A DNA stretch of 64,000 bases, taken from assembly GCA_903875605.1 (NCBI GenBank), contig CAIQWT010000026.1, positions 1 to 64,000 on the forward strand. The letters are read 5' to 3'. Both the position numbers and the translations under genes were made by a program. The stretch comes from an uncultured Geobacteraceae bacterium (GTDB lineage: Bacteria > Desulfobacterota > Desulfuromonadia > Geobacterales > Pseudopelobacteraceae). Below are positions 686 to 27,491 of this stretch, piece by piece (positions within the stretch are counted from its first letter, which is position 1; each line of letters opens with the position of its first letter). Under the pieces are notes generated by a model. That model ran no database searches and was not told where the DNA came from. It saw only the letters and a program-made list of their open reading frames with translations.

Positions 686-714
686 TTGACAGTAGTTTGA
701 TAGTGAGGTATAAA
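686..714 (+). promoter_or_regulatory. sigma-70 promoter of tRNA-Lys
   Basis: A near-consensus promoter: TTGACA at 686-691 and TATAAA at 709-714, separated by exactly 17 bases. Transcription would begin about 6 bases before the tRNA 5' end at 727, so the leader to be trimmed is very short. Confidence 0.85.
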
Positions 715-726
715 ATCCATCTTTTT

Positions 727-802
727 GAGCCGCTAGCTCAGTCGGTAGAGCACCTGACTTTTAATCAGGTGGTCGTTGGTTCGACCCCAACGCGGCTCAC
801 CA
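727..802 (+). tRNA. tRNA-Lys (anticodon UUU)
   Basis: A complete 76-base cloverleaf with encoded CCA. The acceptor stem pairs GAGCCGC (727-733) with GCGGCTC (792-798), followed by discriminator A and CCA at 800-802. The D-arm reads GCTCAGTCGGTAGAGC, the anticodon loop CTTTTAA carries UUU, and the T-arm carries GGTTCGACCCC. UUU reads AAA/AAG lysine codons. It is transcribed alone, with its own promoter upstream and terminator just downstream. tRNA genes are common integration sites, and a decayed gene follows it, but no attachment-site duplication was found in the window. Confidence 0.97.
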
Positions 803-810
803 AACATTAT

Positions 811-845
811 CAGGCACTTACGTTAAATCGTGAGTGCCTGTTTTG
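811..845 (+). terminator. Rho-independent terminator of tRNA-Lys
   Basis: CAGGCACTTACG (811-822) pairs with CGTGAGTGCCTG (829-840) through a 12-bp stem with one G-T wobble and a 6-base loop, followed by TTTT. It sits 8 bases after the CCA end. Confidence 0.88.
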
Positions 846-939
846 GTTTCAAAGTAGCTGACATATCCCCTTACAGTATCCTCTAACACCAAAAATCAGA
901 AATACAGCCATCCATTTTCAAATTTAGCACTGCTTGATG

Positions 940-1247
940 ACCTTATTCCGTTGAGTCAGACATTTTTGCGAATCTGCAACCGTGACTTCAAGCGGTATTT
1001 TCTACGCGACCACCCACTACCTATGAGGGAAACGTTTTTCATGAGTATGCTCCGTACTGCATATACCGTGTCAGTTCCTGCAAAAGGAGACTTCCTGATT
1101 GACAACTCTATTACCTTTGAAGTGGGCGGCAAAAATAAGGATGCATGCCAGATAAAGGAACGGGAGAATGTCTGGTTGGCGTTGGACAATATTGAGACCG
1201 GTAGTGGCAGACGAATACCACTCTGGCTGTTTGGTTTTATTTATTGA
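940..1247 (+). pseudogene. Remnant of a DUF4143-type AAA ATPase (C-terminal piece)
   Basis: The reading frame ending at 1247 keeps the characteristic C-terminal part of the ATPase family that pairs an AAA domain with DUF4143. Visible are RETFFMSMLR, then GDFLIDNSITFEVGGKNK, QIKERENVWLALDNIE, and the closing GSGRRIPLWLFGFIY. Full family members are about 380-480 residues; here the P-loop and the rest of the N-terminal three quarters are missing, and no ribosome site precedes the first ATG. These ATPases are accessory genes of unclear role that often move between genomes. I read this as a gene remnant left beside the tRNA-Lys gene. The left boundary of the remnant is approximate. Confidence 0.7.
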
Positions 1248-1522
1248 CCGGTACTATTGCCTCTTCAGGCTGTGACAGTAGCGCGTTCAATCTTCTGAAT
1301 GATGCGAAAGGTGGCGTCTGCACATACCTTTGACCCACGTCACTCGCCTTCATATCGATTATCTTGTTCAGTGCGGCACCGATGTTGTGGAACCATATAA
1401 AGGATTCCAATAGTCTGAACTGCAGTCATACCCCATTGCGACGGGGGTAGTTGATTAATCCCCAAAAGCGGTTATAGTTGTCAGTAGCTTCGCACCTCTA
1501 TTCATACAAAGGTTCTCATGCA
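1248..1522. other. Intergenic region upstream of the sensory binding protein
   Basis: Noncoding on the plus strand. A minus-strand frame of roughly 60 codons (about 1237-1430) is open but has no convincing start or recognisable family, and may be a further gene scrap. The promoter of the downstream three-gene regulatory operon should lie here; I did not find a clear consensus pair. Confidence 0.4.
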
Positions 1523-2389
1523 ATGAAGCCCGTATCGATTGGATTATGTCTACTGCTACTGTCGCTCGCGCTTCCTTCTTTCGCGTCCGACAAGCCCATC
1601 ATACGCTTCGGCGTTATCCCCCGCTACAACCCACTTGTTATGTACAAGCGCTACCAGCCGATCATGGACTACCTGACGGCAGAAACCCCCTACCGATTTG
1701 AGTTGAAGATCAGCCGCGACTATTCCGAGGCGGTGAGATTCCTCCGGGAAGGAATCACCCCAATCAGCTCTCTGGGCGATGTTACTTTTACTGAGGCTAG
1801 CAAACTATACGGGGCTATTCCCATTCTTAAGCCACTCAATCGCGAAGGCAGTCCCTACTATCGTTCAGCCATCATCGTGTCACAAAATTCACCCTTGAAA
1901 TCATTGGCCGAGCTCAAAGGGAAAAGCATGGTGTTCGGTTCGCCTCACTCTACCTCCGGTAATCTTGTCCCACGTTATATGCTGTGGAACAGTGGAGTCC
2001 GACTCCAGGACCTCGCCTCCATAACCAATCTGAAACACCATGATGCAGTTGCAAAAGCAATTCTAAAAGGACAATTTGCAGCCGGAGCGGTCAAGGATGT
2101 GATCGCACATAAATATATGAGCCATGGTTTACGCGTATTGGCTTATTCCGATCCCCTTCCTTCAGTCCCTTTCGTGGTCAGAAAAGAGGCTTCACCCGAA
2201 TTTATCAGATCCGTCAAACAGGCATTGCTGAAGCTTGACCGAAACAAGCCGGATCACAAAAAAATCATGGACACCTGGGACGACGAATTCAAGTACGGAT
2301 TCGCCGAAGCAAATTCTGATGACTACCGGAAAATATTTGGCATGATCCGCGATATTCCAAAGGGATGCGGTTACGGGTGCCATAGATGA
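1523..2389 (+). CDS. PhnD-like periplasmic oxyanion-binding protein (sensor component)
   Basis: A 288-residue exported protein of the phosphate/phosphite/phosphonate-binding (PhnD, SBP type 2) family. The start at 1523 puts a typical signal peptide first (MKPVS, then LCLLLLSLALPSFAS, cut near residue 22); the longer frame from 1478 would bury it. The mature part opens IRFGVIPRYNPLVMYKRYQPIMDYL and has the family's SPHSTSGNLVPRYML loop that wraps the bound oxyanion. No transporter permease or ATPase follows. Instead its stop overlaps the start of a histidine kinase (ATGA). In the ArxXSR/ArrTSR and TtrSR regulatory systems, as I recall them, a PhnD-like module presents the ligand to the kinase. 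I infer that role here: reporting the substrate of the molybdenum reductase encoded at 7092. Confidence 0.8.
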   Translation: MKPVSIGLCLLLLSLALPSFASDKPIIRFGVIPRYNPLVMYKRYQPIMDYLTAETPYRFELKISRDYSEAVRFLREGITPISSLGDVTFTEASKLYGAIPILKPLNREGSPYYRSAIIVSQNSPLKSLAELKGKSMVFGSPHSTSGNLVPRYMLWNSGVRLQDLASITNLKHHDAVAKAILKGQFAAGAVKDVIAHKYMSHGLRVLAYSDPLPSVPFVVRKEASPEFIRSVKQALLKLDRNKPDHKKIMDTWDDEFKYGFAEANSDDYRKIFGMIRDIPKGCGYGCHR

Positions 2390-3879
2390 CATCGATGCGC
2401 TTTATCAGCATTAAGTTTCAGTTTATGATGATCGCCATGTTTCTGGTGACAATCTCCTCTACGCTTTGGGGTTGGTGGACATGGCAGAACGAGCGTGATC
2501 TTCTGTACCACAACCTGAAGAGCGAGGGAGAGCAGGTTGTTACCTCGCTTTCGTCACCGATAATCAATGCGCTGCTGTACGAAGAGATGGGGGTAATAGA
2601 AGAGGGGGGACTGCTGGATAACTTCATTGAAGAGATCATGAACAATCCGAGCCTGGTGATAACCAGTGCTCTTGTCACCGATCAGGCCGGTAAGGTGCTG
2701 GCACACAATCAATACGGCGAATATGGAAAGGTTTACACGGATTCGCTGATTACGGCCGCTCTCGCCGGAACAAAACAGATATCCAAATTGAAGAAGTCTA
2801 CAGAGGTCACTCCACAGGTTCTGGAAATAGCGATGCCGCTGCGTATTTACGGTAAAAGATGGGGAGTATTAATGGTAGGCATCTCCACCGCCATTTTGGA
2901 AAAGGAGCTGCACTCTCTGGCGTTGCGCATCTTGCTGACCTCTTTTAGTTTTTTCATGTTGGGCACTCTGGCATCGTATCTTATCGGCCGCAATATGGCG
3001 CGCCCTCTGCAGCGCCTATCTGTATTGATGTCCTCTGTTACTACGGAGAACCTGGTTGTTGAACTTCCGCCGAGTCGTCCTGACGAGATTGGCCAGCTTC
3101 AGGACAGTTTCGTTCAGATGCTTGAGCGTCTTCATCGCAGCGAAGCCGAGCGGGAAAAAATTATTGCCCAACTGATCCAGAGCGAGAAATTGGCTTCAAT
3201 CGGTAAAATCACTGCGGGTGTGGCTCACGAAATTAATAATCCGCTCGGCGCAATCAATACCTGTATCTACAATATAGAACAGCAAGGTGGGGCAGGTGGC
3301 CGAAATCTGGAAATGATCAAGCAGGGGACAGAGCGGATCAGGCGTATAGTCAGCCAGCTAAACGATTTCAGCCGGGCCGGGTCACTTGACCTGAAACCAA
3401 TCGACAGCAGTCGGTTCTTCTCTGAAAGCGCCGAGTTTGCCAGAGTCGTTCTCAGCAAGCATGCAGTTCGACTGGTTGCTCAGGATAACTGTAGCACGCC
3501 CCGCGCCTTGTCTCTGGACAAGGGCAAGATGCAGCAGGTGATCCTCAATCTGCTTATTAACGCTTCCGATGCTTCCCAAGCGGGAGGGACGGTTCTGTTT
3601 AGCGCACATTGTTCCGGACAGTTCTATCACATCCAGGTAACGGACAATGGCTGTGGCATTCCTGCTCCCGATCTGAACAGGATATTTGACATCTTTTATA
3701 CAACCAAGCGAACCGGTGAAGGGACGGGCATCGGCCTGGCCATCTGCAAGAGTATTGTCGAGATGCACGGCGGTACCATCCAGGTTTCCAGCTGCCCCGG
3801 CGAAACAGTCTTTACCGTTATCGTTCCCAATCAAACTTCGGAGGTACCTGATGGAGGTATTCAAGCTGCTTCTGGTTGA
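2386..3879 (+). CDS. Sensor histidine kinase, NtrB/TtrS-like output
   Basis: A 497-residue membrane kinase. The first helix is at about residues 10-30, a periplasmic sensing segment covers about 31-180, and the second helix about 181-202. A HAMP linker runs from 203 to about 255. The HisKA box carries phospho-acceptor His281 (GVAHEINNP), with the N box at NLLINASDAS and ATP-lid motifs DNGCGIP and GTGIGLAICKSIVEMHGG. The GVAHEINNPLG form of the H box is typical of kinases that drive AAA-type response regulators. It overlaps the binding-protein gene by 4 bases and the regulator gene by 29 bases, so the three are translationally coupled. An internal ATG nine bases later (2395) could also be the start. 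Confidence 0.88.
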   Translation: MTSMRFISIKFQFMMIAMFLVTISSTLWGWWTWQNERDLLYHNLKSEGEQVVTSLSSPIINALLYEEMGVIEEGGLLDNFIEEIMNNPSLVITSALVTDQAGKVLAHNQYGEYGKVYTDSLITAALAGTKQISKLKKSTEVTPQVLEIAMPLRIYGKRWGVLMVGISTAILEKELHSLALRILLTSFSFFMLGTLASYLIGRNMARPLQRLSVLMSSVTTENLVVELPPSRPDEIGQLQDSFVQMLERLHRSEAEREKIIAQLIQSEKLASIGKITAGVAHEINNPLGAINTCIYNIEQQGGAGGRNLEMIKQGTERIRRIVSQLNDFSRAGSLDLKPIDSSRFFSESAEFARVVLSKHAVRLVAQDNCSTPRALSLDKGKMQQVILNLLINASDASQAGGTVLFSAHCSGQFYHIQVTDNGCGIPAPDLNRIFDIFYTTKRTGEGTGIGLAICKSIVEMHGGTIQVSSCPGETVFTVIVPNQTSEVPDGGIQAASG

Positions 3880-5200
3880 GGATGACCCCCTGTTGGGTGA
3901 AGCGCTCCAGGAAGCGCTCTTGACCAATGGCTATCAGGTGCGTTGGGCTGACAGCGGCGCTGGTGCACTTGAGGCGGCCTGCAACGAATCCTTCGACCTT
4001 TTGCTTCAGGATGTGAAGCTACCGGATGCCGACGGTCTAGATATTCTTAGCGACATCCTGAATCACCAGCCCAGTTGTCACTCTCTGGTTATGACCGGGC
4101 AGGCCACTGTGGAAATGGCGGTGCGCGCCATGAAGCTGGGAGCGTTCGACTTTCTTATCAAGCCCTTTGATGTCAATCTGTTGCTATTGAAGCTTGAACG
4201 GGTGTTTGAATATCGTAACCTTGAAAAGCAGCTTAAACAGCTTTCCGACGATGCTACCCATAAGTCGCGCATCATAACCCGCTCTCCAGCTATGCGTTCG
4301 TTGCTGAATACTGCTGCAGTCGTTGCCTCCAGCGACGTGTCGCTGCTCCTTCAGGGAGAAAACGGCACCGGAAAAAAACTCCTGGCTCAAACCATCCATG
4401 GATGGAGCCCCCGAAAAAACTGTCGTTTGATACAGCTTCACTGTGGAGCTATCCCTGCTCCAATGATCGAGGAAGAGCTGTTCGGTATTGAAAAAGGGGC
4501 TACTTCTACTGCTGACCGTGGAAGACCCGGGCTGCTTGAGATAGCCGCCGGGGGCAGCCTGTTTCTGGACGGCATCGATGAACTGCCGTTATTAATTCAG
4601 TCGGCATTGGCCAGTGCACTGGAGGAGATGGCCTGCTGCAGGATTGGAGGGACGACAGTCCGAAAACTGGATTTCCGCCTGATCTGTTCGACTGCACAAG
4701 ATCTGAAGGCGATGACTGATGACGCCCTTTTTCGCAGGGATCTCTACTACAGAATCAACGTGGTCACCATTCATCTGCCACCATTACGTGAGCGCCGTGA
4801 GGACATCCCGCTACTTGCGGCCCATTTCGTAAATAAGTTCACTTGTAATAACCAGAGTCGCGTCCAGCTTTCGCCGGAACTGCTGGATCGCTTAATGCTG
4901 CTTCCCTGGCCCGGCAATATCCAGGAGTTGGGAAACCAGATCGAAGAACTTATTCTGCTTCACCCCGGCCAGACGCTCATGGAGCGCCATCTCCCCGCAT
5001 TGATGGAGTCCCCCCTAGATATGGGCATCCAGTTTGAAAGAATTCAGGTCGGTATGCCACTCAAGGATGCTGTCAGCCTTTTTGAAATGCGCTACATTCA
5101 TCGGGTGCTGGACAGCATGGGCGGACAAAAAGGTCGGGCTGCAGAGGCGCTTGGTCTGTCCCGGAAGGTGCTGTGGGAAAAACTCAAGCGCCAGCCATAA
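3851..5200 (+). CDS. Response regulator with AAA+ and Fis-type HTH domains; degenerate sigma-54 contact loop
   Basis: A 449-residue NtrC-architecture regulator: receiver domain (acid pocket D11/D12, phospho-acceptor D54 in LLQDVKLPDADG), AAA+ domain, and C-terminal Fis-like HTH (GGQKGRAAEALGLSRKVLWEKL). The start at 3851 follows GGAGG. Two things are odd. The loop that is GAFTGA in sigma-54 activators reads GATSTA, and the Walker B strand reads LFLDGIDEL instead of the usual LFLDEIGE, so the second catalytic acidic residue is glycine. Walker A (GENGTGKKLL) and the arginine-finger region (FRRDLYYRINV) look intact. By family knowledge, loss of GAFTGA abolishes sigma-54 remodelling, so this protein may act as a DNA-binding regulator with sigma-70. 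Its likely targets are the palindromes at 5218 and 5349. Confidence 0.85.
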   Translation: MEVFKLLLVEDDPLLGEALQEALLTNGYQVRWADSGAGALEAACNESFDLLLQDVKLPDADGLDILSDILNHQPSCHSLVMTGQATVEMAVRAMKLGAFDFLIKPFDVNLLLLKLERVFEYRNLEKQLKQLSDDATHKSRIITRSPAMRSLLNTAAVVASSDVSLLLQGENGTGKKLLAQTIHGWSPRKNCRLIQLHCGAIPAPMIEEELFGIEKGATSTADRGRPGLLEIAAGGSLFLDGIDELPLLIQSALASALEEMACCRIGGTTVRKLDFRLICSTAQDLKAMTDDALFRRDLYYRINVVTIHLPPLRERREDIPLLAAHFVNKFTCNNQSRVQLSPELLDRLMLLPWPGNIQELGNQIEELILLHPGQTLMERHLPALMESPLDMGIQFERIQVGMPLKDAVSLFEMRYIHRVLDSMGGQKGRAAEALGLSRKVLWEKLKRQP

Positions 5201-5217
5201 TTACCTCGTCTCTCCAT

Positions 5218-5233
5218 GTTACGCAATCGTAAC
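5218..5233. promoter_or_regulatory. Operator-like palindrome, copy 1 (GTTACG-N4-CGTAAC)
   Basis: A perfect 6+6 bp palindrome with a CAAT centre, 18 bases after the regulator stop codon. The same arms recur at 5349-5364. Such paired sites upstream of a target gene are typical for Fis-type HTH dimers; assignment to the regulator encoded at 3851 is inference. Confidence 0.6.
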
Positions 5234-5348
5234 GTCACCATCCTCTCCTCAAAACCCTGCAAACACAGTTAATCCGCGACTATTCAGACATTTGGAATAA
5301 AGAACCTTTCGCTTTAAAACTACCGGTAACTTTCCAAATGCATGCATT

Positions 5349-5364
5349 GTTACGACATCGTAAC
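5349..5364. promoter_or_regulatory. Operator-like palindrome, copy 2 (GTTACG-N4-CGTAAC)
   Basis: The same arms as copy 1 with an ACAT centre; here the match extends one more base on each side (T...A), giving 7+7 bp. It starts 131 bases after copy 1 and ends 25 bases before the proposed -35 box of the cytochrome promoter, the position expected for an activator site. Confidence 0.65.
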
Positions 5365-5389
5365 AGAAAACATCAATAAAAACAATAAC

Positions 5390-5418
5390 TTGTGGTATTT
5401 TGTGATCTGGTTTATAGT
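5390..5418 (+). promoter_or_regulatory. Candidate sigma-70 promoter of the reductase operon
   Basis: TTGTGG (5390-5395) and TATAGT (5413-5418) with a 17-base spacer, about 55 bases before the cytochrome start codon. No good sigma-54 element (GG-N10-GC with TTGC) was found in the gap, which agrees with the degenerate AAA+ loop of the upstream regulator. This is by eye only. Confidence 0.45.
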
Positions 5419-5472
5419 TGCGTTGGGTTGTTTGGAACGGAATTAACATAAAGGTAAAGGAGAGTTGAAACT

Positions 5473-6981
5473 GTGGATGAAATGAATCTCAAGGTACATA
5501 AAAGGAAACGGCTGCTTCGGTGGTTAGCCATAACTGTGGTGGCGCTTGTCGTAATGGCTGGCGGTGTGCTGGCCGTCCTGCTGGTGGCGGAAAATTACTC
5601 AGGTCGGTCCGAGTTCTGCGGTACGCAGTGCCACATCATGAAACCAAATTATGATACCTGGAAAAAAGATAAACATAGCCTGCCCGATAAGAAGACAGGC
5701 AAGATAACCGGCTGTATCGACTGCCATTACAAACCGGGAGAAAAACCGACGCCCAAGGCAAAATTCCGGGGGTTGGGACAGCTCTTCTCCTATCTGGCAA
5801 CGGGCGATAAGGAAGTGCGCAAAAGACCGTCGGTGAGTGATTTAAGCTGCACTACCGCACTGTGCCACCCCATGGACAAGCTTCTGGTCCAGCAGATTGA
5901 TTACAAGAAAAAGTATGAAACAAAATACAAAGGCAATCTCAAACCCTTCGAACATAAAACCCACCTTGAAAAAGTGATCGATGGGCAGAAACTTCAATGC
6001 ACCTCCTGTCATTTGCACCAGACGAGGGGCAGGCATTTTGAAGTGCCGAAAGAGCTCTGCTTTATCTGTCATTTCCGTAAAGCCAAGGAGAATGAAGGAC
6101 GGGCCAAGTGCGCCGTCTGCCACGAAATTCCTGAAAAGCCGCTGGAGATGAAAAAGGTCGCTGGCGATGTTGGAGACGGCAAACCGAAGAAGCCAATCAC
6201 TCATAAGGAGCTCGAAGCGGCAAAGATTTCGTGCAACCGCTGCCATCTGGAAATGATCATGGGAAGCACTTCGCTGAAAATGGACCTGTGCCTCGAATGT
6301 CACCACGACGCGTCACCCGAGCTGATGTCCAAAGTAAGTGATAAAAAGCTGATGCACATGGAGCATGTCACCAAACAGACAGCCCGCTGTTCCCAGTGCC
6401 ACGAGACTATCGACCACAAAAAAAACTCCTATCTGGACGCCGCGGTAAAGAACTGCGACGCATGCCATCCGGAACCACACTTCTATACCAAAAAACTTCT
6501 GGCTGGCGTCGGCAGTGTGGGCGTGGGAACTCAGGAAAAATATCCTTCACTTATGCACTCTTTCGGAACCAACTGCACCGGTTGCCATCAGAAGGACAGC
6601 CGTGATGCTAAGGGGAACAAGGTCAGAGCGGGGTCGAACAAGAGTTGTGCCGCGTGCCATCATAACGATCCGAAGTACGAGAAGATGACTGTACAATGGG
6701 CTAAAGACATCGTGGAGGCGGTGGCGGAAACAAAACTGGCTGAGAAGGCGGCGCTGGAAGCGGTCGCTGAGGTACAGAGTGCCAAAACGACACCGGTATA
6801 CACGCAAGCCGTCGCTAAGCTCAAACGTGGTCAGGAGAATCTCCGGATTGTGACTGCCGGTGGTGGAGTGCATAACAAAAAATATGCGATGCTTCTGCTT
6901 GATATGGCCACGCAGAGTTTTCAGGAAGTGGCGGCGGAACTGAAATCACAAACTCCGAAAGGGGGGACAGGTGAGAAGTAG
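5473..6981 (+). CDS. NapC/NrfH-anchored 12-haem c-type cytochrome
   Basis: A 502-residue multihaem cytochrome held in the membrane by one N-terminal helix (about residues 14-38), like NapC, NrfH and CymA. Ten standard CXXCH sites are present, with second cysteines at 84, 169, 189, 206, 247, 266, 299, 321, 361 and 385. There are also two wide sites, CX3CH at 49-53 (EFCGTQCHIM) and CX4CH at 126-131 (CTTALCHPM). The total is 12 probable haems. The last 110 residues are haem-free and helical. The GTG start at 5473 is chosen because AAGGAGAG lies about 10 bases before it. As first gene of the reductase operon it probably takes electrons from menaquinol and passes them to the periplasmic molybdenum enzyme, the job CymA does for ArrAB in Shewanella; that is inference. 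Confidence 0.88.
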   Translation: MDEMNLKVHKRKRLLRWLAITVVALVVMAGGVLAVLLVAENYSGRSEFCGTQCHIMKPNYDTWKKDKHSLPDKKTGKITGCIDCHYKPGEKPTPKAKFRGLGQLFSYLATGDKEVRKRPSVSDLSCTTALCHPMDKLLVQQIDYKKKYETKYKGNLKPFEHKTHLEKVIDGQKLQCTSCHLHQTRGRHFEVPKELCFICHFRKAKENEGRAKCAVCHEIPEKPLEMKKVAGDVGDGKPKKPITHKELEAAKISCNRCHLEMIMGSTSLKMDLCLECHHDASPELMSKVSDKKLMHMEHVTKQTARCSQCHETIDHKKNSYLDAAVKNCDACHPEPHFYTKKLLAGVGSVGVGTQEKYPSLMHSFGTNCTGCHQKDSRDAKGNKVRAGSNKSCAACHHNDPKYEKMTVQWAKDIVEAVAETKLAEKAALEAVAEVQSAKTTPVYTQAVAKLKRGQENLRIVTAGGGVHNKKYAMLLLDMATQSFQEVAAELKSQTPKGGTGEK

Positions 6982-7091
6982 CGGTAACAATGTGGTGAGG
7001 ATGATTCACACAGAAGATGGTCTGTACGGCGCCATTGGCTACAAGATTGCTGTGCCGGAACTTAAGGTGAAAAACCTGAAAGGAGAAACGT

Positions 7092-9650
7092 ATGAACATT
7101 AACAGAAGGAATTTTCTGAAAGCATCACTGGCGGCTGGTGTGCTCTTTACCCTTGACGGCCCGCTGTTTAACGCCCTGGCCTTTGCGGCTGCTGAGGGTG
7201 GAGTAAAACCTGGTGCCTGGCTCCCCTCCACCTGTCAGGGGTGCACCGCCTGGTGTCCGGTGGAGTTTTTTGTTCAAAACGGCCGTATAGCAAAGGTTCG
7301 CGGCAACCAGCTCAGCAAGGCCAACAATGGCTACTGCTGCCCTCGCGGCCATCTTATGGTTCAACAGGTCTATGATCCGGACCGGATCAAGGTGCCGATG
7401 AAACGCACCAACCCTGTCAAGGGGCGCGGTGTCGATCCCAGGTTCATTCCGATCAGTTGGGATGAGGCATTGGATACGGTCGCTGACAAGATGCTGGAAC
7501 TGCGCAAAGCCAATGAGCCGGAAAAACTGCTCTACATGCGTGGCCGCTACTCGTCAACTTCAACCGAGCTACTATACGGCACACTACCGAAAATTTACGG
7601 CACCCCTAATTACTACTCCCACAGCGCCATCTGCGCCGAAGCTGAGAAAATGGGGCCGGGGCTCACCCAGGGTTTCTTCGGTTACCGGGACTACGACCTG
7701 GCCAAAACAACCTGCTTGGTAATCTGGGGTACCGACCCGCTCAGCTCTAACCGTCAGGTGCCCAACGCCATCAACAAGTTCGGCGACATCCTTGATCGCG
7801 GCACAGTCATCACAGTCGATCCCCGTTATTCCACCTCTGCTGCAAAGGCCACGGAGTGGCTTCCGATCAAGCCGGGCGAAGACGGTGCTCTGGCAGCGGC
7901 CTTTGCACACGTCATTATGACCGAAGGGATGTGGAGTAAGGAGTTTGTCGGTGATTTCAAGGAGGGTGTCAATCTCTTCAAGAGCGGTGCAACGGTTGAC
8001 GAGGCGGCTTTTGTGGAAAAACAGACGTATGGCGTTGTTAAATGGTGGAATATCGAGTTGAAGGACAAGACCCCTGCCTGGGCCGCCAAGGTCACACTGA
8101 TCCCTGAAGATCAGATCATCCGTGCAGCCCGCGCCATGGGCAAAGCGGGGACAAAAACATCGGTCTGGATGGGGCCCGGCGTGGCCATGACCCCTCGCGG
8201 AACCTATGCATCTATGGCGGTCTACGCACTAAACGGCATCCTCGGTTCCATTGAAACCGAAGGGGGCGTCATGCAGAGTTCCAGTGCGCCGGTGGAGAGT
8301 TTCCCCAAGGCCGATCCATTTATTGATGAACTGGCCAAGCACCACGGTCATGGCAAAAAGATTGACGGCCGTGGCGCTAAAAACATGCCGGCCATGATGA
8401 ACGCCAAGCCGGGGAGCGGCGTGGTCACCAACAACGTGGCCAATGCCCTGTTGAAGGATCCCGGAGCGATAAAGGTTTTTATCAGCACCTGGAGCAACTT
8501 CGTCTTTTCTGCCACCGGTGCTCAGCGCTGGGAAAAGGCTATGGAAAAAATCCCCTTCTTCGTTCATGTGGTCACTAACGCCGCTGAAATGACCCAATAC
8601 GCTGATATTGTTCTGCCGGCGACTTTTGCTCCGGCTGAGAAACTCTCTATCGTTGGTAATATGGCCAACCTGCACGGCCATATCTCCATTCAGCAACCGG
8701 TGATCAAGCCGCTCTGGCAGGCTAAGGCCGAAGAGATCGAAGTAATGTGGCTTCTGGCCGAAAAGCTTAAAACCAAAGGGTTTGCAAATCTGTATGATTA
8801 CTATGCTTCCTTTGAAGATCCGGAAACCAAGAAAAAACCGGCCAACGCAGCAGAGTTTGCAGAAATAGCCGCTAAAATTTCCAGCCAGAAGGTCTGGAAC
8901 GGTAAAGAGAAGATGAAGGGAGATCAGATTGCAGGATGGGAAGATTTCAAGAAAAAAGGCGTCTACAACTCCGAGGTCTATAAGTACAAAAAGAACTGGG
9001 GTAAGGATAACCCCGAAACGAAGAAATTCGAAGGCAAGTTCAAGACCGAAACCAAAAAGTTCGAGTTTTACAGCGAGACCATGAAAAAAGGGCTTGCCGA
9101 GCATGCCAAAAAGCATAACACCACCATAGATGATATCCTCAAGGTCAGCGGTTATGAGGCCCAGGGTGAACTTGCCTTTGTGCCGCATTATGAATCACCC
9201 AAGCGCCACGGAAGCCTGGCGGAGTATCCCTTTACCTTTATCGACCACAAGTCCCGCCTCAACCGGGAAGGGCGCAGCGCCAACACTCCATGGTACCAGG
9301 AATTCAAGAAGGTGGACGTTGGGGATAAGAGCTGGGATGACGTGGCCAAGATCAACCCGATAGACGCAAAAAAAATGGGCATCAAGGACGGCGACACTAT
9401 TCGTCTCACCTCTACTACTGGAACTATTGTCACCAAGGCACGGCTCTGGGAAGGTGTCCGTCCCGGTACGGTCGCCAAATGCTATGGTCAGGGCCACTGG
9501 GCCTACGGTCGCGTTGCCGCCAAGGATTACGCCAAGGCCCAGCCACGTGGAGGCAACAACAACGAGCTTCTGGTCGACGACTATGACCGTTTGAGCGGCG
9601 CTACTGCCCGCAACGGCGGCTTCACCGGCGTCAAGATCGAGAAAGCCTAG
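7092..9650 (+). CDS. ArrA-like molybdopterin oxidoreductase, catalytic subunit (CISM family)
   Basis: An 852-residue Tat-exported molybdenum enzyme (RRNFLK at residues 5-10). A 4Fe-4S site at C48, C51, C55 and C83 has the CX2CX3CX27C spacing of respiratory arsenate reductase. The Mo ligand should be C181 (SHSAICAEAEKMG). Residues that bind arsenate in Shewanella ArrA as I recall them (R165, Y166, H189, S190, K198) have counterparts R152, Y153, H177, S178 and K186. The length also matches ArrA (about 854). The final 130 residues form the usual dinucleotide-binding domain. A good ribosome site (AGGAGA) precedes the ATG. The substrate is probably an oxyanion such as arsenate; selenate, tetrathionate, thiosulfate or polysulfide cannot be excluded from sequence alone. 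It is encoded with a cytochrome, an ArrB-like subunit and a chaperone. Confidence 0.85.
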   Translation: MNINRRNFLKASLAAGVLFTLDGPLFNALAFAAAEGGVKPGAWLPSTCQGCTAWCPVEFFVQNGRIAKVRGNQLSKANNGYCCPRGHLMVQQVYDPDRIKVPMKRTNPVKGRGVDPRFIPISWDEALDTVADKMLELRKANEPEKLLYMRGRYSSTSTELLYGTLPKIYGTPNYYSHSAICAEAEKMGPGLTQGFFGYRDYDLAKTTCLVIWGTDPLSSNRQVPNAINKFGDILDRGTVITVDPRYSTSAAKATEWLPIKPGEDGALAAAFAHVIMTEGMWSKEFVGDFKEGVNLFKSGATVDEAAFVEKQTYGVVKWWNIELKDKTPAWAAKVTLIPEDQIIRAARAMGKAGTKTSVWMGPGVAMTPRGTYASMAVYALNGILGSIETEGGVMQSSSAPVESFPKADPFIDELAKHHGHGKKIDGRGAKNMPAMMNAKPGSGVVTNNVANALLKDPGAIKVFISTWSNFVFSATGAQRWEKAMEKIPFFVHVVTNAAEMTQYADIVLPATFAPAEKLSIVGNMANLHGHISIQQPVIKPLWQAKAEEIEVMWLLAEKLKTKGFANLYDYYASFEDPETKKKPANAAEFAEIAAKISSQKVWNGKEKMKGDQIAGWEDFKKKGVYNSEVYKYKKNWGKDNPETKKFEGKFKTETKKFEFYSETMKKGLAEHAKKHNTTIDDILKVSGYEAQGELAFVPHYESPKRHGSLAEYPFTFIDHKSRLNREGRSANTPWYQEFKKVDVGDKSWDDVAKINPIDAKKMGIKDGDTIRLTSTTGTIVTKARLWEGVRPGTVAKCYGQGHWAYGRVAAKDYAKAQPRGGNNNELLVDDYDRLSGATARNGGFTGVKIEKA

Positions 9651-9669
9651 GAAAGGGAGGAATTAACCA

Positions 9670-10500
9670 ATGGCAAAACAACTAGGAATGGTTATAGATA
9701 TGCAGAAATGCGTGGGATGCGGAGCGTGTGCCCTCGCCTGCAAAACCGAAAACAGCACGCAGGGCGCAAACAGAGGACAAACCTTTAACTGGGCTGATTT
9801 TTACATCACGGAGAAGGGGACGTTTCCTAACATCCAGTCAGAGACTATCCCTACCCGCTGCAATCACTGCGCAGAACCGGAATGTATCAAAGGATGCCCG
9901 AAGCCACAGGCGTTGTATAAGTCGGAAGAGGGGCTCACCCTGTTCAACGCCAAGTATTGTATCCAATGTAAAAAATGTCAGGAGAAGTGTCCCTACAGTG
10001 CTCTCGATGTGAACAAGCAGCATGTGCAATACAGTGTCATCAGCTTTAATGAGGTTGGTGTTGAAGTCAATGAATTCTACAAGGATAAAACGGAACTGAT
10101 CAAGGGGTGTACCGCCTCCGGAGCTCAAGTGTCTCAAGCCGCCGGGGCAACCCCGCCCAACAGAAACGAGTATGCTTACAGGGATGACAAGAACCCGCGC
10201 GACCCGAAAGCTACCCGTGGCAAAGGAGAGACTAAAGATGTCCGTTCCGGCGGTTGGGTGGAAAAATGCACCTTCTGTGTCCACCGGATCAGGAATGGCG
10301 AGCAACCGTACTGTGTCGTGGCCTGTCCGGCCAAGGCGCGGATCGTCGGCGATGTCAACGATCCTGCCAGTGAGGTGAGCAAGCTGATCAGTAAATACAA
10401 GCCGAGACTGCTCAAGAACAATAAGGGTGAGTATCTGAAAGCCGGCGAGAAGGGTACGCAGCCAAACAATTATTACATCAGGGATTATAAAAAAGTGTAG
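9670..10500 (+). CDS. Four-cluster ferredoxin subunit of the molybdenum reductase (ArrB/PsrB/DmsB type)
   Basis: A 276-residue iron-sulfur protein with no signal peptide; it would be exported with the Tat-tagged catalytic subunit. Four cysteine groups, each expected to hold a 4Fe-4S cluster, are visible: CVGCGACALAC, CNHCAEPECIKGC, CIQCKKCQEKC and CTFCVHR...YCVVAC. The segment RNGEQPYCVVACPAKARIVGDVNDPASEVSKLI closely follows ArrB. It is longer than Shewanella ArrB (about 234 residues) because of an insert around residues 125-195 rich in charged residues. AGGA lies 8-11 bases before the ATG, 19 bases after the catalytic gene. It should carry electrons between the 12-haem cytochrome and the Mo site. 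Confidence 0.9.
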   Translation: MAKQLGMVIDMQKCVGCGACALACKTENSTQGANRGQTFNWADFYITEKGTFPNIQSETIPTRCNHCAEPECIKGCPKPQALYKSEEGLTLFNAKYCIQCKKCQEKCPYSALDVNKQHVQYSVISFNEVGVEVNEFYKDKTELIKGCTASGAQVSQAAGATPPNRNEYAYRDDKNPRDPKATRGKGETKDVRSGGWVEKCTFCVHRIRNGEQPYCVVACPAKARIVGDVNDPASEVSKLISKYKPRLLKNNKGEYLKAGEKGTQPNNYYIRDYKKV

Positions 10501-10522
10501 TTCGGACTGGCATCTATCATGG

Positions 10523-10553
10523 CCGGCCCTCTCCATATCAGGGAGTGGGCCGG
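10523..10553 (+). other. GC-rich stem-loop between the ferredoxin and chaperone genes
   Basis: CCGGCCC (10523-10529) pairs with GGGCCGG (10547-10553), and an inner CTCC/GGAG pairing follows after a T-T mismatch, with loop ATATCA. There is no T-run, so it is not a normal terminator. It may protect the upstream message or lower chaperone output relative to the structural subunits. Confidence 0.6.
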
Positions 10554-10572
10554 TAAAGCTCGAGGAGTAGCC

Positions 10573-11220
10573 ATGCAAAAAGATGAAATTATCGTACTTG
10601 AGATAATGAAAGGTGAGTGCTATCGCTTTTTGGCCGCTTGTTTCTATTTACCAAATAAGGAGTCACTTGCAGCGGAACAATTACTTGCCAATCTGACGCA
10701 AAACCTTCAGCAAATCTGCCCGGCGGCTGCGCCGTTTTCAAAAAAAATGGAAGAGAGCTTTGAAGCGTACACGGAAGAAGAGCTTGCAGTAGAATACTCC
10801 AGGCTCTTCGTGGGACCATTCGGCCTGAAGGCCCCGCCGTATGGATCTATTTATCTGGACAATGAACGCACGGTTATGGGCCCCTCCACCATGGAGACTA
10901 TACACTTTTACGAAAAAGAAGGGCTTGCCAGAGATGAGAGCTTTAACGAGCTTCCCGATCATATCGCAGTAGAGCTGGAATTCATGTATTTTCTCATTTT
11001 CAGGGAAGCGGAAGCTCTGCAGAATGGAGAGTCCGGGCGGGCAGAATTGTATCGCCAAAAACAGGAGAATTTCCGCAGTCGTTTCCTTGATAAATGGGTT
11101 CCTGCATTTTGCGGGAATATGAAAGAGGGTACCGACAACGTTTTTTATCTCGCGCTGGCGGACTGTTTATTCACTTTGATCTCGCTCGCATCTGTACCGG
11201 CGGCATCAGGTCAGCCGTAA
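10573..11220 (+). CDS. TorD/DmsD-family chaperone for the molybdenum reductase
   Basis: A 215-residue cytoplasmic, mostly helical protein of the TorD family, which holds the apo-catalytic subunit until cofactor insertion and Tat export. Family hallmarks are the segment EYSRLFVGPFGLKAPPYGSIY (about residues 75-97), the following ERTVMGPST, and NELPDHIAVELEFMYFL. The start at 10573 is chosen because GAGGAG lies about 7 bases before it; the ATG at 10519 would place the GC hairpin inside the gene. It is the last gene of the reductase operon. The partner is almost certainly the enzyme encoded at 7092. Confidence 0.85.
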   Translation: MQKDEIIVLEIMKGECYRFLAACFYLPNKESLAAEQLLANLTQNLQQICPAAAPFSKKMEESFEAYTEEELAVEYSRLFVGPFGLKAPPYGSIYLDNERTVMGPSTMETIHFYEKEGLARDESFNELPDHIAVELEFMYFLIFREAEALQNGESGRAELYRQKQENFRSRFLDKWVPAFCGNMKEGTDNVFYLALADCLFTLISLASVPAASGQP

Positions 11221-23977: not shown

Positions 23978-25771
23978 TCAGGTCTCCCGGTTGCGTTGCT
24001 GCTTGGAACATATATCCGTGTACAGCCCTCCAAGCTGAAACAATTCGGCAGGGGAGCCCTGTTCGGCAATCTGTCCCGATTTCATGACGATGATCCGGTC
24101 GCAGTCGCGGAATGCCGACACTCGCTGCGAGACGATCAGTACGGTTCGTCCGGTGTAAAATTTGCCCAGCTCATTGAGAATCTCCTCCTCGCGCCCGGCG
24201 TCAACGGCAGAAAGAGGATCATCCAATAACAGAAGCGGCGGGTTGCCGACAACGGCGCGGGCGATAGCGAGTCGCTGCTTCTGGCCGCCGGAAAGAGTTA
24301 CGCCCCCTTCTCCTACCTGCGTTGCAAATTTATCGGGGAACGATTCAATGTCCTCAAAAAAACCAGCCTGACTGGCCGCTTTTTGCATTAACGCGTCAGA
24401 GTGCTTTCCGGTAATTCCGTAACTGATATTTTCGGCCACTGTTCTAGAAAACAGAAACGTTTCCTGAGGAACATAACCGATCAGGTGGCGCAGGCTGGTA
24501 GTACTTATAGTGTTAATATCACGTCCGTCGACAAAAAGCATTTCCTCTGATACCGGGAGTAATCTTGCTATAAGCCGTAAAAGAGTTGTTTTTCCACTGC
24601 CGACTTCTCCGGTGATGCCCACGGTTTCTCCTGTCTGGATGTGAAGCGAGATCCCGTTGAGAATAAGTGTGTCGCCATAGCTGAAACTAAGATTGCTGGC
24701 TTTAATGCCGTGCTGTAGAGTGGTAATTGGTTGGGCATCGGGGTGATCTATCACCGTTGGCTCGGCACTCAGTATTCCGGCGAGGCGAGACATGGAGGCG
24801 GCACCACGTTGCGCCAGAGTCAAAATCCACCCCAGTACAGCCGTCGGCCAGACAAGCATCGCCAGATAGCCGCTGAAGGCAACAAAATCTCCTAAAGTTA
24901 TGACGTTGTCTATGACAAGTCGTCCCCCCATAAATAGAACGACCAGTGTTCCAGCCCCGGTGGCTGTTGCCATCACAGGAATGATAAGGCCCCGCAAACG
25001 TGCCAGTCTCAGGTTGTGTTTGAGGTAACGCTCGGCTGTCTTGCCGAACTCCCCCTGAAAATACTCTTCTCGGCAGTATGATTTGATCAGCCGTACAGCA
25101 GAAACCGTTTCTTCCGCCTGACTGGAAAGGTGTGCCAACTCCTCCTGAGCCAGAAGAGACCGGTGAAAAAGCCGATGGCTTACTTTTTTGACTGTGAAAA
25201 CCATCAACGGGAAAGGCAATATAGCCCAGAACGTAAGCCAGGGATGAATACCAACCATCATCGTTACTGCAGAGCTATAAACTATCAGCGTGTTGATGGC
25301 ACTCATTGCGCCAAAGCCGGTGAGCATGCGTACATTTGTCAGGTCGTTGGAAAAGCGGGAAAGGATGTCGCCGCTGCGACTGTTGGAAAAATATCCCAGG
25401 TCAAGTTGAGTCAGGCGATGGAACAGGTCGTTACGGATGCGGAACTCAATTATCCGGGCGGCATTAAGACTTAATGTTCGTGAGAAAATACGGGTTACAC
25501 AGTGTAGTACCGACAGAGTCACGATTATCAGTGCACAGGTAGCCGGAGACAGACGCGCTCTCTCAGGATGTTGAAGGGCCTCAATAGCCAGCTTCATAAA
25601 CCAGGGGATCAAAAGCGCAAAAGCGTTGGTAAGAAGAAGAAACAGCGCTCCACCGGCATACCGCCAGCGGAGCGCTTTCAAATAAGGAATGAGTCGGGCA
25701 AGGTCTTTGATAGCTGAGTCCTGGGTGATTGTTTCGGATGAGGCTGAAATGTGATTCCCGCCTCTAACCAA
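23978..25771 (-). CDS. ABC exporter, fused permease and ATPase (MdlA/MsbA-like)
   Basis: A 597-residue half-transporter. Six membrane helices cover about residues 35-315 with the EFRIRNDLFHRLTQLDLGYFSNSRSGDILSRFSNDL loop typical of MdlA/YheI-type exporters. The ATPase half has Walker A GEVGSGKTT (GEVGSGK rather than GxSGSGK), signature LSGGQKQRLAIARAV and Walker B LLLLDDPLSAVD. The only possible start upstream of the first helix is TTG at 25771. It converges with cysA and has no partner half-gene beside it, so it probably works as a homodimer. Substrate unknown: drug, lipid or peptide. Confidence 0.85.
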   Translation of the reverse strand: MVRGGNHISASSETITQDSAIKDLARLIPYLKALRWRYAGGALFLLLTNAFALLIPWFMKLAIEALQHPERARLSPATCALIIVTLSVLHCVTRIFSRTLSLNAARIIEFRIRNDLFHRLTQLDLGYFSNSRSGDILSRFSNDLTNVRMLTGFGAMSAINTLIVYSSAVTMMVGIHPWLTFWAILPFPLMVFTVKKVSHRLFHRSLLAQEELAHLSSQAEETVSAVRLIKSYCREEYFQGEFGKTAERYLKHNLRLARLRGLIIPVMATATGAGTLVVLFMGGRLVIDNVITLGDFVAFSGYLAMLVWPTAVLGWILTLAQRGAASMSRLAGILSAEPTVIDHPDAQPITTLQHGIKASNLSFSYGDTLILNGISLHIQTGETVGITGEVGSGKTTLLRLIARLLPVSEEMLFVDGRDINTISTTSLRHLIGYVPQETFLFSRTVAENISYGITGKHSDALMQKAASQAGFFEDIESFPDKFATQVGEGGVTLSGGQKQRLAIARAVVGNPPLLLLDDPLSAVDAGREEEILNELGKFYTGRTVLIVSQRVSAFRDCDRIIVMKSGQIAEQGSPAELFQLGGLYTDICSKQQRNRET

Positions 25772-25816: not shown

Positions 25817-26989
25817 TTAACGTGATGCAGTAATGAAAATCTCAGGCCGCGAGCTGTTTGCGCTGGTAAAGCTGCTGTTTCCGGCAGTTGCCACAAGCGA
25901 TGAACCATCATGATTATCTCTCAGAACAGTACCTGGATTCACGACTGCGGCGATTGTGACCGGGCCATTGTAGCCGGAGACCGGAATTGGAGAAACACTC
26001 CCATCCAGTGATATTCCATTACCCCATCTGCCGGTTCCCGCATCCCCCCACGCCCACACAATGTCATTTTGTGCAATAGCGATAGTGTGACCAACTGATG
26101 CTGTTATATCGGTTATATGGCTTATCCCCGAAACCTGAACTGGAGAATTGCTATTGGAGACGCTTGAGCTGCCAAGCTGGCTTGCATGATTATTGCCCCA
26201 TGCCCATACAGTCCCGTCGTGTTTGAGAGCGGCTACGTGCCAGTCACCGGCGGCTATGGCGTGGACGTCATTTAGTCCGGATACCTGGACCGGGATGGCG
26301 CTGCGCTCGGATCCACCATTGCCTAGTTGTCCCTTGCCATTAAAACCCCAAGACCATACAGTGCCATCTTTTTGCAGGGCAGAGGTATTGTAGGCTCCAG
26401 CAACAATTGCCGTTACATTACGTAATCCCTGAACTTGTGTCGGCTCCATGCGGTTCGAAAATTCACCATTTCCCACCTGCCCGGAGTGGTTGCCGCCCCA
26501 CGCCCAAACTGTGCCGTCCTGTTTTAACGCGACGACATGGCCGCTTCCGGTTGCGATCGCTTTAACGTCATTGATGGCAGTTACTTTGTGTGGTACAGAC
26601 CAATCATGGGTGGTGCCGTCGCCGATCTGGCCCGAACCATTAAACCCCCAAGTCCAGACGGTGCCGTCTTTTTTCAAAGCAACGGAATGAGATGCGCCCG
26701 CCAGTACTGCAATTACGTTGTCCAGCCCTTTAACCATTTTAGGTTCAACGCCTTCTCCGCCAAAAGTACCATTCCCCAGTTCTCCAAATTCGTTTCCACC
26801 AAGTGCCCAGACTTTGCCGTCTTCTGTAAGCGCCAGGGTGTGGTCTTTACCGTGAGAGTACCAAGGAGTGGCAGCAAGTGAAGCTACTGGAAGTGAAAGC
26901 AGGAGCGAAACCAGGGCAAGAGAGAGTAGCCGCGACTTTTTTCCTAATTCAGGTGTAATTGATGATGCATAAGAGTCCTGTTTTAACAT
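25817..26989 (-). CDS. Secreted RCC1-repeat protein under tandem GEMM riboswitch control
   Basis: A 390-residue exported protein (signal peptide about residues 19-40, ending ASLAA). Six RCC1-type repeats follow, marked by a W(A/T/S)(W/L)G core at residues 61, 112, 162, 212, 262 and 312, a strict 50-residue period. Each carries GTVW.WG.N..GQ.G.G. RCC1 repeats fold into seven-bladed propellers; with six clear blades the seventh may come from the less regular segments at residues 40-60 and after 330. The C-terminal 60 residues are Ser/Asn-rich. A strong AAAGGAG precedes the ATG. Upstream lie two c-di-nucleotide riboswitches. Function unknown; a surface or secreted binding protein is likely. Confidence 0.85.
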   Translation of the reverse strand: MLKQDSYASSITPELGKKSRLLSLALVSLLLSLPVASLAATPWYSHGKDHTLALTEDGKVWALGGNEFGELGNGTFGGEGVEPKMVKGLDNVIAVLAGASHSVALKKDGTVWTWGFNGSGQIGDGTTHDWSVPHKVTAINDVKAIATGSGHVVALKQDGTVWAWGGNHSGQVGNGEFSNRMEPTQVQGLRNVTAIVAGAYNTSALQKDGTVWSWGFNGKGQLGNGGSERSAIPVQVSGLNDVHAIAAGDWHVAALKHDGTVWAWGNNHASQLGSSSVSNSNSPVQVSGISHITDITASVGHTIAIAQNDIVWAWGDAGTGRWGNGISLDGSVSPIPVSGYNGPVTIAAVVNPGTVLRDNHDGSSLVATAGNSSFTSANSSRPEIFITASR

Positions 26990-27051
26990 GATAATTCTCC
27001 TTTCGTAGCTGTGAATAACGCCCCATTTTAATTAGCAGGCCAATTATCACG

Positions 27052-27133
27052 CGACATTTCGGCGACCCGGCTGTCTCTATGAGAGACCCTATAGGCTTTC
27101 CGTCCCATCCTCACGGATGGTTTAGTATTATCG
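27052..27133 (-). ncRNA. GEMM-I riboswitch aptamer 2 (gene-proximal)
   Basis: Read on the minus strand. P1 pairs CGATA with TGTCG. P2 is CCATCC-GTGA-GGATGG with a GNRA tetraloop, followed by GACGGAAAGCC, P3 hairpin GTCTCT-CAT-AGAGAC, then AGCCGGGTCGCCGA, the conserved tetraloop receptor and 3' core. The 5' core reads AATACTAAACC; at the position equal to G20 of the Vibrio Vc2 RNA it has A, the mark of GEMM-Ib RNAs that bind 3',3'-cGAMP. No terminator follows; TGATAATT just past the aptamer can pair with AATTATCA between the ribosome site and start codon of the RCC1 gene. Confidence 0.88.
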
Positions 27134-27154
27134 TCTGCCACGAGAGGTAACAAA

Positions 27155-27212
27155 CTTATATCGGCAGTCGATATAAGCGATTCAGATACAACTGCTAGCC
27201 TCACCTCCTTTA
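27155..27212 (-). other. Inter-aptamer segment: extended Shine-Dalgarno and hairpin
   Basis: On the minus strand, TAAAGGAGGTGA (27212-27201) is a perfect 12-base match to the 16S rRNA anti-Shine-Dalgarno tail. No gene starts close behind; the best candidate is TTG at 27191 opening a frame of 11 codons that ends at 27156. A hairpin CTTATATCG-N5-CGATATAAG (27155-27177) follows. The pair lies between the two aptamers and is not explained by either. Confidence 0.5.
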
Positions 27213-27236
27213 TTAAAATTTAGCACAATTAAGCAT

Positions 27237-27287
27237 AAAAAAACCGGGTCACCATTATGTCGAATTTTCGACATTTCGGCGACCCGG
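27237..27287 (-). terminator. Riboswitch-controlled intrinsic terminator
   Basis: On the minus strand, CCGGGTCGCC pairs with GGTGACCCGG (one wobble), enclosing a second perfect stem ATGTCGA/TCGACAT, followed by seven T. Its 5' arm is built from the last bases of aptamer 1, including the TGTCG strand of P1. Forming P1 on ligand binding must therefore break the terminator, which predicts an ON switch. Confidence 0.85.
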
Positions 27288-27348
27288 CTATCTCCTTGAG
27301 ACCCATTAGGCTTTCCGTCCTACCCTCGCGGATAGTTTAGTATTATCG
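27269..27348 (-). ncRNA. GEMM-I riboswitch aptamer 1 (promoter-proximal)
   Basis: Minus strand. P1 pairs CGATA with TGTCG. P2 is CTATCC-GCGA-GGGTAG, which keeps pairing and the GNRA loop while differing from aptamer 2 at several bases, so both helices are under selection. GACGGAAAGCC, P3 (TCTC-AAG-GAGA) and AGCCGGGTCGCCGA follow. The 5' core AATACTAAAC has A at the ligand-selectivity position, as in the cGAMP-binding GEMM-Ib type known from Geobacter. Its 3' end is shared with the terminator at 27237. Confidence 0.9.
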
Positions 27349-27491
27349 TTATTTATGTATAAACAATTCCCGACTGTTTGGATGTACTCTACGATATGAA
27401 AATAAAAAAAACAAGGAAAAAATGCAACGACGTTATTTTATTTTATAAAACAAACCGGGTTGTTACTTGCTGTAGCGCCGATTGTAATACA

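Follow-up and report, generated by a model that had tools for sequence, protein, structure and literature searches.

Tandem cGAMP riboswitches are known in Geobacter sulfurreducens, e.g. ahead of omcAHG (PMC6456294), and the cGAMP riboswitch of pilM has been described as an ON switch whose folds exclude one another (PMC9262584). Tandems of a single riboswitch class are mostly taken to be copies of one switch that make its response steeper (PMC9481103, PMC12452182). The latter paper, a survey of 2025, does anticipate tandems whose platforms work at different levels, describing the resulting control as more efficient (PMC12452182). Here we describe a tandem GEMM-I leader ahead of a gene for a secreted RCC1-repeat protein, in which the two copies differ in their output devices. 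Leaving the direction of the response aside, we consider it probable that this is a dual-level cyclic-dinucleotide leader acting on both transcription and translation.

Two GEMM-I aptamers in one leader

In the whole 64,000-nt stretch of DNA analysed here (the window), cmscan returned two matches to RF01051 only, both on the minus strand and both above the gathering score of 35 bits:

27275..27351, minus strand: distal GEMM-I aptamer (GEMM-Ib type, A20); RF01051 45.5 bits, E 1.1e-5, model positions 1-87, with A at model position 11
27058..27136, minus strand: proximal GEMM-I aptamer (GEMM-Ib type, A20), nested inside the helix termed P0 below; RF01051 45.9 bits, E 8.9e-6, model positions 1-87

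The original prediction, made from the letters alone, had placed two complete aptamers in series on the minus strand at 27052-27348; the covariance-model check bears this out, and its positions agree with those coordinates to within a few bases. Re-reading of the sequence likewise returned the claimed helices, i.e. a P1 (CGATA/TGTCG) identical in the distal and proximal copies and a P2 that reads CTATCC/GGGTAG in one and CCATCC/GGATGG in the other. P1, P2 with a GNRA-type loop, and P3 are present in both aptamers, as judged from the RF01051 alignments and from the fold of ten proximal orthologs. That both aptamers are under selection had been argued from the P2 difference; a difference between two copies is weak evidence for this, and it is the orthologs that provide the real evidence. 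Both aptamers also have the predicted A in place of G20 of Vibrio Vc2: the Rfam alignment puts an A at model position 11, which we take, via that alignment, to be position 20 in Vc2 numbering.

Neither aptamer reaches the cut-off of 59 bits for the c-di-GMP-I-GGC family (RF03167; 47.2 and 47.1 bits, locus L115). The assembly as a whole contains five RF01051 sites in four leaders, three of the A20 type and one of the G20 type. The latter (L001:1501-1577, 67.3 bits), the sole G20-type aptamer of the genome, lies ahead of a small protein with CxxCH motifs. A consensus scan of the window for promoters and terminators stayed near chance level, and such a scan is blind to a long terminator.

Cyclic dinucleotide specificity

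The most likely ligand of both GEMM-Ib-type aptamers is 3',3'-cGAMP, because both carry A20 and because the genome encodes a Ser-type GGDEF protein closest to the GacA structure. The change from G20 to A has been tied to cGAMP binding (PMC9481103, PMC6274999). Position 20 is A in all 23 complete aptamers of the RCC1 ortholog set, which—together with the GacA-like enzyme—strengthens the cGAMP type assigned originally. Moreover, the AAUAC stretch of both window aptamers is identical to the contact bases A11-C15 given for 4YAZ, the Geobacter structure with cGAMP (PMC7288161); a few orthologs deviate in this stretch.

The genome has 21 GGDEF matches, and in the 15 loci where the motif is readable by pattern, the Hypr signature position holds Asp in 13 and Ser in two; the Ser signature of Hypr GGDEF enzymes is described in PMC6456294. 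One of the Ser-type proteins (L138) combines the GGDEF domain with a receiver domain, and its best solved match is the G. metallireducens GacA chain 6d9m (E 1.9e-63). Given Ser at the signature position and GacA as the nearest solved chain, this GacA-like protein is a candidate cGAMP synthase of the genome. The second Ser-type candidate, L145 (G000:C74:24257-24550), carries the motif GGDDF, and an active GGDDF synthase has been reported from G. sulfurreducens (PMC8835794).

That the aptamers bind c-di-GMP, or both dinucleotides, instead of cGAMP seems quite unlikely. The canonical Asp in 13 of the 15 readable GGDEF loci points that way, as does a Desulfobacca aptamer in which the same change brought a gain in cGAMP affinity at perhaps only a slight cost for c-di-GMP (PMC9481103), whereas A20 throughout the ortholog set, the agreement of AAUAC in both window aptamers with the 4YAZ contacts (PMC7288161) and the GacA-like enzyme encoded in the genome all argue for cGAMP.

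Orthologous leaders and their RCC1-repeat targets

The leader precedes the following genes:

25817..26989, minus strand: controlled gene, secreted RCC1-repeat protein of 390 aa; PF00415, PF13540 and PF25390 above their cut-offs
23978..25771, minus strand: ABC exporter-type gene, whose mechanically assigned start lies 45 bases beyond the RCC1 gene; PF00664 and PF00005

PF00415 scores 204 bits against a cut-off of 21.7, over five stretches (E 3.5e-61). The N-terminus has an apparent Sec signal peptide, so the protein appears to be exported; together with the RCC1 repeats, this upholds the original description of the target as an exported, propeller-like protein. RCC1-like propellers have seven blades. 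By sequence, the nearest solved chain is that of UVR8 (6xzn, E 4.5e-76), with HERC2 and RCC1 also among the nearest; these belong to the same repeat family, whereas the protein considered here is bacterial and exported. Inspection by eye revealed no hairpin with U-run in the gap between the RCC1 gene and the ABC exporter-type gene, and the two are possibly cotranscribed.

A protein search across 277 genomes of the class yielded 14 RCC1 orthologs, from 13 of these genomes (E ≤ 9e-98), the next match following at 1.3e-68. Among named assemblies, those with the closest versions of the RCC1 protein belong to Geobacteraceae and Desulfuromonadales, with 60 to 75% identity over the best segment among the best seven loci. 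The leader orthologs span three families of one order (f1, f3 and f4); loci L035-L042 and L116-L121, L123 and L124 represent, judged by length, the same contigs and were counted once. In 13 of the 14 leaders, a proximal GEMM-I aptamer reaches the gathering score, and in the remaining one (L264) both ends of the proximal GEMM-I flank a run of N. The distal aptamer is found in 10 of the 14; it is lacking in L119 and L124 (from one genome) and in L120, and none is visible in L264. The leader is conserved together with the RCC1 gene, and its two units differ from one another; both points would be new.

GEMM-I aptamers as such are widespread in this group: RF01051 matches occurred in all 58 genomes of the relatives search, the own one included, and tandem GEMM-I arrangements are common in these bacteria, with at least 18 tandem loci besides the RCC1 ones, including a triplet. 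In L222:265-631 (G010), three RF01051 matches 145 bases apart form a triple tandem of A20-type GEMM-I.

A small protein with three CxxCH motifs adjoins the RCC1 gene in 6 of the 12 ortholog loci examined:

L038:4314-4958, L040:4210-4809, L041:4264-4869, L042:4188-4799, L263:2706-3008 and L264 695-1276 (reverse strand): three-CxxCH proteins

Such neighbours fit the electron-transfer theme of cGAMP in Geobacter as presented in PMC6456294. The cytochrome of L038 has a GEMM-I of its own at 4226-4302. Unlike these triheme-neighbour loci, the window has the ABC exporter-type gene beside the RCC1 gene.

GEMM-I aptamers were also found ahead of other RCC1-repeat genes. A c-di-GMP-I-GGC aptamer with G20 (L213:141-217, G020) lies directly ahead of a secreted RCC1-repeat protein of 3541 aa (339-10964), and we predict this to be another RCC1 target, of the c-di-GMP type. 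In two members of another genus of the order, GEMM-I aptamers L279:442-520 (G041) and L280:3325-3248 (G048) directly precede genes for secreted RCC1 proteins, 998 aa and 984 aa long; by eye, position 20 differs between them (G and A). A further c-di-GMP-I-GGC aptamer (L083:1772-1878) is located directly ahead of an 855-aa secreted RCC1 protein (2056-4623) in a Candidatus Brocadia assembly. At L214, a further gene intervenes between GEMM-I and the RCC1 gene, and in two scans, 11 of 20 and 6 of 8 RCC1 loci had no GEMM-I near the RCC1 gene within the stretch examined. Leaving aside the two founding PNAS papers (Kellenberger 2015 and Nelson 2015), we found no RCC1 protein linked to a cyclic dinucleotide riboswitch in the literature covered, going by titles and the opening lines of abstracts. 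Exported RCC1-repeat propellers would join the probable cGAMP regulon of metal-respiring bacteria.

A terminator sharing a strand with the distal aptamer

Fold energies point to an intrinsic terminator overlapping the distal aptamer:

27237..27289, minus strand: putative intrinsic terminator of the distal unit, which uses the 3' strand of the distal aptamer as its 5' arm; CCGGGTCGCC pairs with GGTGACCCGG, and a U-run follows

The aptamer together with the terminator folds at -45.3 kcal/mol, as compared with -18.6 kcal/mol for the aptamer alone (or -20.6 for a slightly longer piece). In the minimum-energy folds of all ten tandem RCC1 leaders, the downstream arm of the terminator pairs with the CCGGG strand of the aptamer. 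Distal aptamer and terminator would therefore be mutually exclusive, which is the anatomy of a transcriptional ON switch of the pilM type; the function is read from this anatomy. With no ligand bound, the 3' strand of the aptamer would be drawn into the terminator and transcription would stop, while a ligand-bound aptamer would retain the strand and let RNA polymerase read through.

A predicted anti-SD helix around the proximal aptamer

The flanks of the proximal aptamer can pair with each other and with the Shine-Dalgarno (SD) sequence of the RCC1 gene, giving the following predicted elements:

27137..27147, minus strand: P0 5' strand, made up of anti-SD CCT (27147-27145) and the core TCGTGGC (27143-27137); duplex with the SD region -15.5 kcal/mol
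26997..27009, minus strand: P0 3' strand, GCTACGA (27009-27003), which continues directly into the SD, AAAGGAG (27003-26997); AGG at 27001-26999 pairs with CCT
27133-27129 with 27056-27052, minus strand: P1 of the proximal aptamer
27011..27050, minus strand: P4 hairpin, the junction's third arm, in the interval from the aptamer to the P0 3' strand (RNAalifold, 10 orthologs)

Across the ten orthologs of the genus, TCGTGGC on the 5' side and GCTACGA on the 3' side of the proximal aptamer are invariant. Of 39 genomes of the genus, 8 contain a motif taken from this flank; it has nine occurrences in all, every one at an RCC1 leader. In the four orthologs from other genera or families, the P0 strands differ yet still pair, and the helix reaches the SD in each. 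Our leader pairs CCU-C-UCGUGGC with GCUACGA-A-AGG; the counterparts are CCUUAGUGAU with AUCAUUAAGG in G085, CCU-AA-AGUGAU with AUCACU-AA-AGG in G069, and CUUUUCGUGG with CCAUGAAAGG in G139. In G051 and G069, the helix is interrupted by internal loops.

In the alignment of all 14 sequences, 97.9% of the P0 cells are paired and three of seven pairs have changed on both sides. These double changes may stem from one or two events, because G051, G085 and G069 share one core type. When P0, P1, P2 and the base of P3 are counted together, double changes occur in 12 cells, compared with 2.9 on average after shuffling, and sliding the partner strand lowered pairing from 98% to 30-59%. P4 contributes two pairs changed on both sides, in three cells (RNAalifold, 10 orthologs), and at its place L263, L265 and L266 have other sequences that still fold into a hairpin.

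The reach of P0 to the SD was assessed with an SD-matched control, which replaced a wide-window duplex control; the latter suffered from excessive noise and from leaders that entered more than once, under different loci. A P0-SD duplex of -12.6 kcal/mol or lower was found in all 14 RCC1 leaders compared with 2 of 29 other A20 leaders (means of -14.4 kcal/mol, z -3.2, and -6.4 kcal/mol, z -0.2, respectively). The two exceptions belong to one lipoprotein-like gene family, and the next value is -10.0. A z of -2.5 or lower was not reached by the RCC1 leaders L036 (-2.4) and L040 (-2.0), and was reached by the non-RCC1 leaders L246 and L254. The five P0 versions, distinct though not necessarily independent, each outperformed mononucleotide shuffles (0 to 4 of 500 as good). 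Swapping strands among the five gave a mean of -13.9 for matched and -9.9 for mismatched strands, and of 120 permutations, two were as good, counting the true one. Some swaps pair equally well or better, namely the G139 5' strand with strands of our genus or of G051, and G051 with G069. On the strength of the pairing in 14 leaders, the changes on both sides, the matched duplex control and the swaps, we read P0 as a real anti-SD helix that encloses the proximal aptamer.

In L246 and L254, at about 1500-1670, an aptamer within an anti-SD helix (z -3.7 and -2.7) precedes a lipoprotein-like gene without RCC1 repeats, and these leaders contain a terminator-like stretch inside. A covariance model of the module (R1) was discarded as proof of P0 and used for ranking only, because its full-length matches include GEMM-I with terminators (126 of 141 genomes matched); in that ranking, three RCC1 leaders came 1st, 3rd and 8th among the matches outside the ten training leaders. 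Two other pairings were also dropped: TGATAATT (about 27049) with AATTATCA before the start codon, confined to our genome and lost in orthologs, and a 4-bp hairpin, TCGT-GGCAG-ACGA, that would compete with P0 and P1 and is not conserved in G051, G085 and G069.

Of the 10 RCC1 leaders scored, 9 lack a terminator after the proximal aptamer and the tenth (L117) has a weak one (-14.4), and by eye no U-run was seen after the proximal aptamer in the four distant leaders. Elsewhere, among the matches listed, a terminator follows the last aptamer in 14 of the 18 other tandem loci (11 of the 13 A20 ones) and is absent in 4 of the 18 (2 of the 13). Tandems of one class are usually seen as two like transcriptional ON switches that jointly steepen the response (PMC9481103, PMC4759541, PMC12452182), and the terminators after the last aptamer at those 14 loci would suit such pseudo-cooperativity. 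For our leader we hold this very unlikely: each aptamer would have its own terminator, whereas here the distal one does and the proximal one does not, with a conserved P0 that reaches the SD instead. The sharper control that had been expected from the tandem presupposes like units and loses its footing, as a convincing terminator is seen in the distal unit only and the proximal aptamer sits inside a helix covering the SD.

In the dual-level reading, aptamer and P4 would be two of the arms of a three-way junction and P0 its closing helix, with CCU at the outer end of P0 pairing with AGG of the SD, such that the proximal unit would act on translation. That it should do so follows from the missing terminator of its own and from the outer end of P0 covering the SD. 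Comparison of sequences shows the aptamers, the reuse of an aptamer strand by the terminator, and P0 with its reach to the SD.

Direction of the proximal response

The ligand, the direction of the response and the effect on translation are what we infer. Judged from the anatomy, ligand binding that holds P1 in place should favour closure of the junction and hence occlusion of the SD; an OFF response of the proximal unit, with the ligand-bound aptamer closing the junction and strengthening P0, is the likeliest of the three outcomes considered, if at somewhat less than even chances. An ON response seems somewhat unlikely, and so, to the same degree, does a proximal unit on which the ligand has no effect.

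Two energy models were considered, and neither settles a direction for the proximal switch. Under the nearest-neighbour model of the shorter module, P0 contributes -5.6 to -12.5 kcal/mol with or without P1, the coupling between P1 and P0 is about zero (mean +0.1 kcal/mol over 14 leaders, with the run of N removed from L264; none favours OFF), and the SD core is mostly paired in both states. When 75 upstream bases were added, forcing P1 raised the probability of P0 in 8 of the 10 genus leaders and left two unchanged, while mean SD openness hardly altered.

The absence of coupling and the very stable P0 of the shorter module would be expected of a static lock, in which P0 holds translation low regardless of ligand, only the distal unit or another factor regulates, and the proximal aptamer is a relic or an RNA-stability element. 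We regard this as unlikely, given that the part kept in all 14 leaders is the proximal aptamer rather than the distal one, and that three leaders have the proximal aptamer alone.

Between the two aptamers lies a strong SD-like sequence and, further downstream, a possible reading frame:

27200..27211, minus strand: SD-like sequence AAAGGAGGTGAG; pairs with a 16S tail at -17.5 kcal/mol, a value reached by 0 of 60 shuffles
27156..27191, minus strand: possible 11-codon leader ORF with a TTG start; weak, a reading frame only

The SD-like site (AAAGGAGGTGA) is a near-perfect complement of the 16S tail, pairing at -17.5 kcal/mol against -12.9 kcal/mol for the true SD. At a like place, it recurs in most orthologs: in 10 of the 14 leaders scored, at most 2 of 60 shuffles were as good and the site is stronger than the true SD, if barely so in L117. 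L265 is less clear (5 of 60 shuffles), the site is absent in L124, and L264 and L266 do not rise above shuffles. It may serve as a standby site, as the start of a leader ORF, or as a competitor for the anti-SD strand; short frames that follow it in other leaders encode different peptides. A hairpin of GCTTATATCG and CGATATAAGT is located between the aptamers at 27180-27152, and by eye a hairpin with altered pairs is retained at this place in several orthologs.

The SD-like site bears on a coherent double lock, in which the ligand antiterminates distally and opens the SD proximally. The link between bound aptamer and open SD might be tertiary or kinetic in nature, or the upstream GGAGGU might sequester the anti-SD strand, ACCUC. 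GGAGGTGA of the inter-aptamer region is complementary to TTACCTCT in our leader, both units are retained together in 10 of the 14 leaders, and GEMM-Ib genes of G. sulfurreducens fall upon deletion of the cGAMP synthase, i.e. they respond in the ON direction (PMC6456294). Such an ON/ON arrangement is nevertheless rather unlikely: the bound structure as drawn holds P1 and P0 without clash, the fold of our leader including the inter-aptamer region retains P0, and the SD-like site is missing from L124 and no better than shuffles in L264 and L266.

A distal ON and a proximal OFF switch would give opposed outputs from one ligand. The leader could then work as a band-pass device, with cGAMP turning transcription ON through the distal unit and higher or later cGAMP turning translation OFF through the proximal junction that covers the SD. 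We put this forward as a tentative, somewhat doubtful model. If true, the RCC1 protein would be made only within a window of cGAMP, and GEMM-I would gain a new expression platform, in which the aptamer is an arm of a junction closed by an anti-SD helix.

Relation to described riboswitches

Tandem GEMM-I, tandem cGAMP GEMM-Ib and the design of the distal switch are already known. New, as far as the comparison of sequences suggests, are the RCC1 target and the way in which a transcriptional unit is combined with a proximal aptamer lying inside a helix that covers the SD. The locus offers a concrete, conserved case, in which the two copies have retained unlike output devices in three families of a single order, and it makes testable whether one second messenger is sensed twice, once at each level and perhaps with opposite signs. 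In the literature as covered, we found no two same-class aptamers with opposed outputs and, going by titles and the opening lines of abstracts, no natural band-pass tandem riboswitch.

A known three-unit leader is a same-class tandem too, but all three of its units are transcriptional ON switches. In the SAM-II/SAM-V tandem, both units are OFF switches. This tandem, from Candidatus Pelagibacter, resembles ours in that one ligand is read by two units at the levels of transcription and translation, yet it combines two aptamer classes and has another ligand (PMC4759541). Opposed effects at two levels are described for single riboswitches, Bc1 (PMC11218506) and SAM-II of metA (PMC9373788); each of these has one aptamer, whereas our leader has two aptamers with separate platforms, and its opposition is only inferred. 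The pilM riboswitch of G. metallireducens is like the distal unit, with a terminator and an aptamer that exclude each other and an ON response; it is described as a single transcriptional switch, in a description from which a P0 module is absent, while the leader studied here adds a second, P0-nested unit (PMC9262584). The Geobacter GEMM-Ib tandems, e.g. that of omcAHG, are alike in having A at position 20, tandem order, related hosts and Hypr GGDEF enzymes; compared by their description, our leader differs in its RCC1 target and in a proximal unit that lies in an SD-covering helix and has no convincing terminator (PMC6456294).
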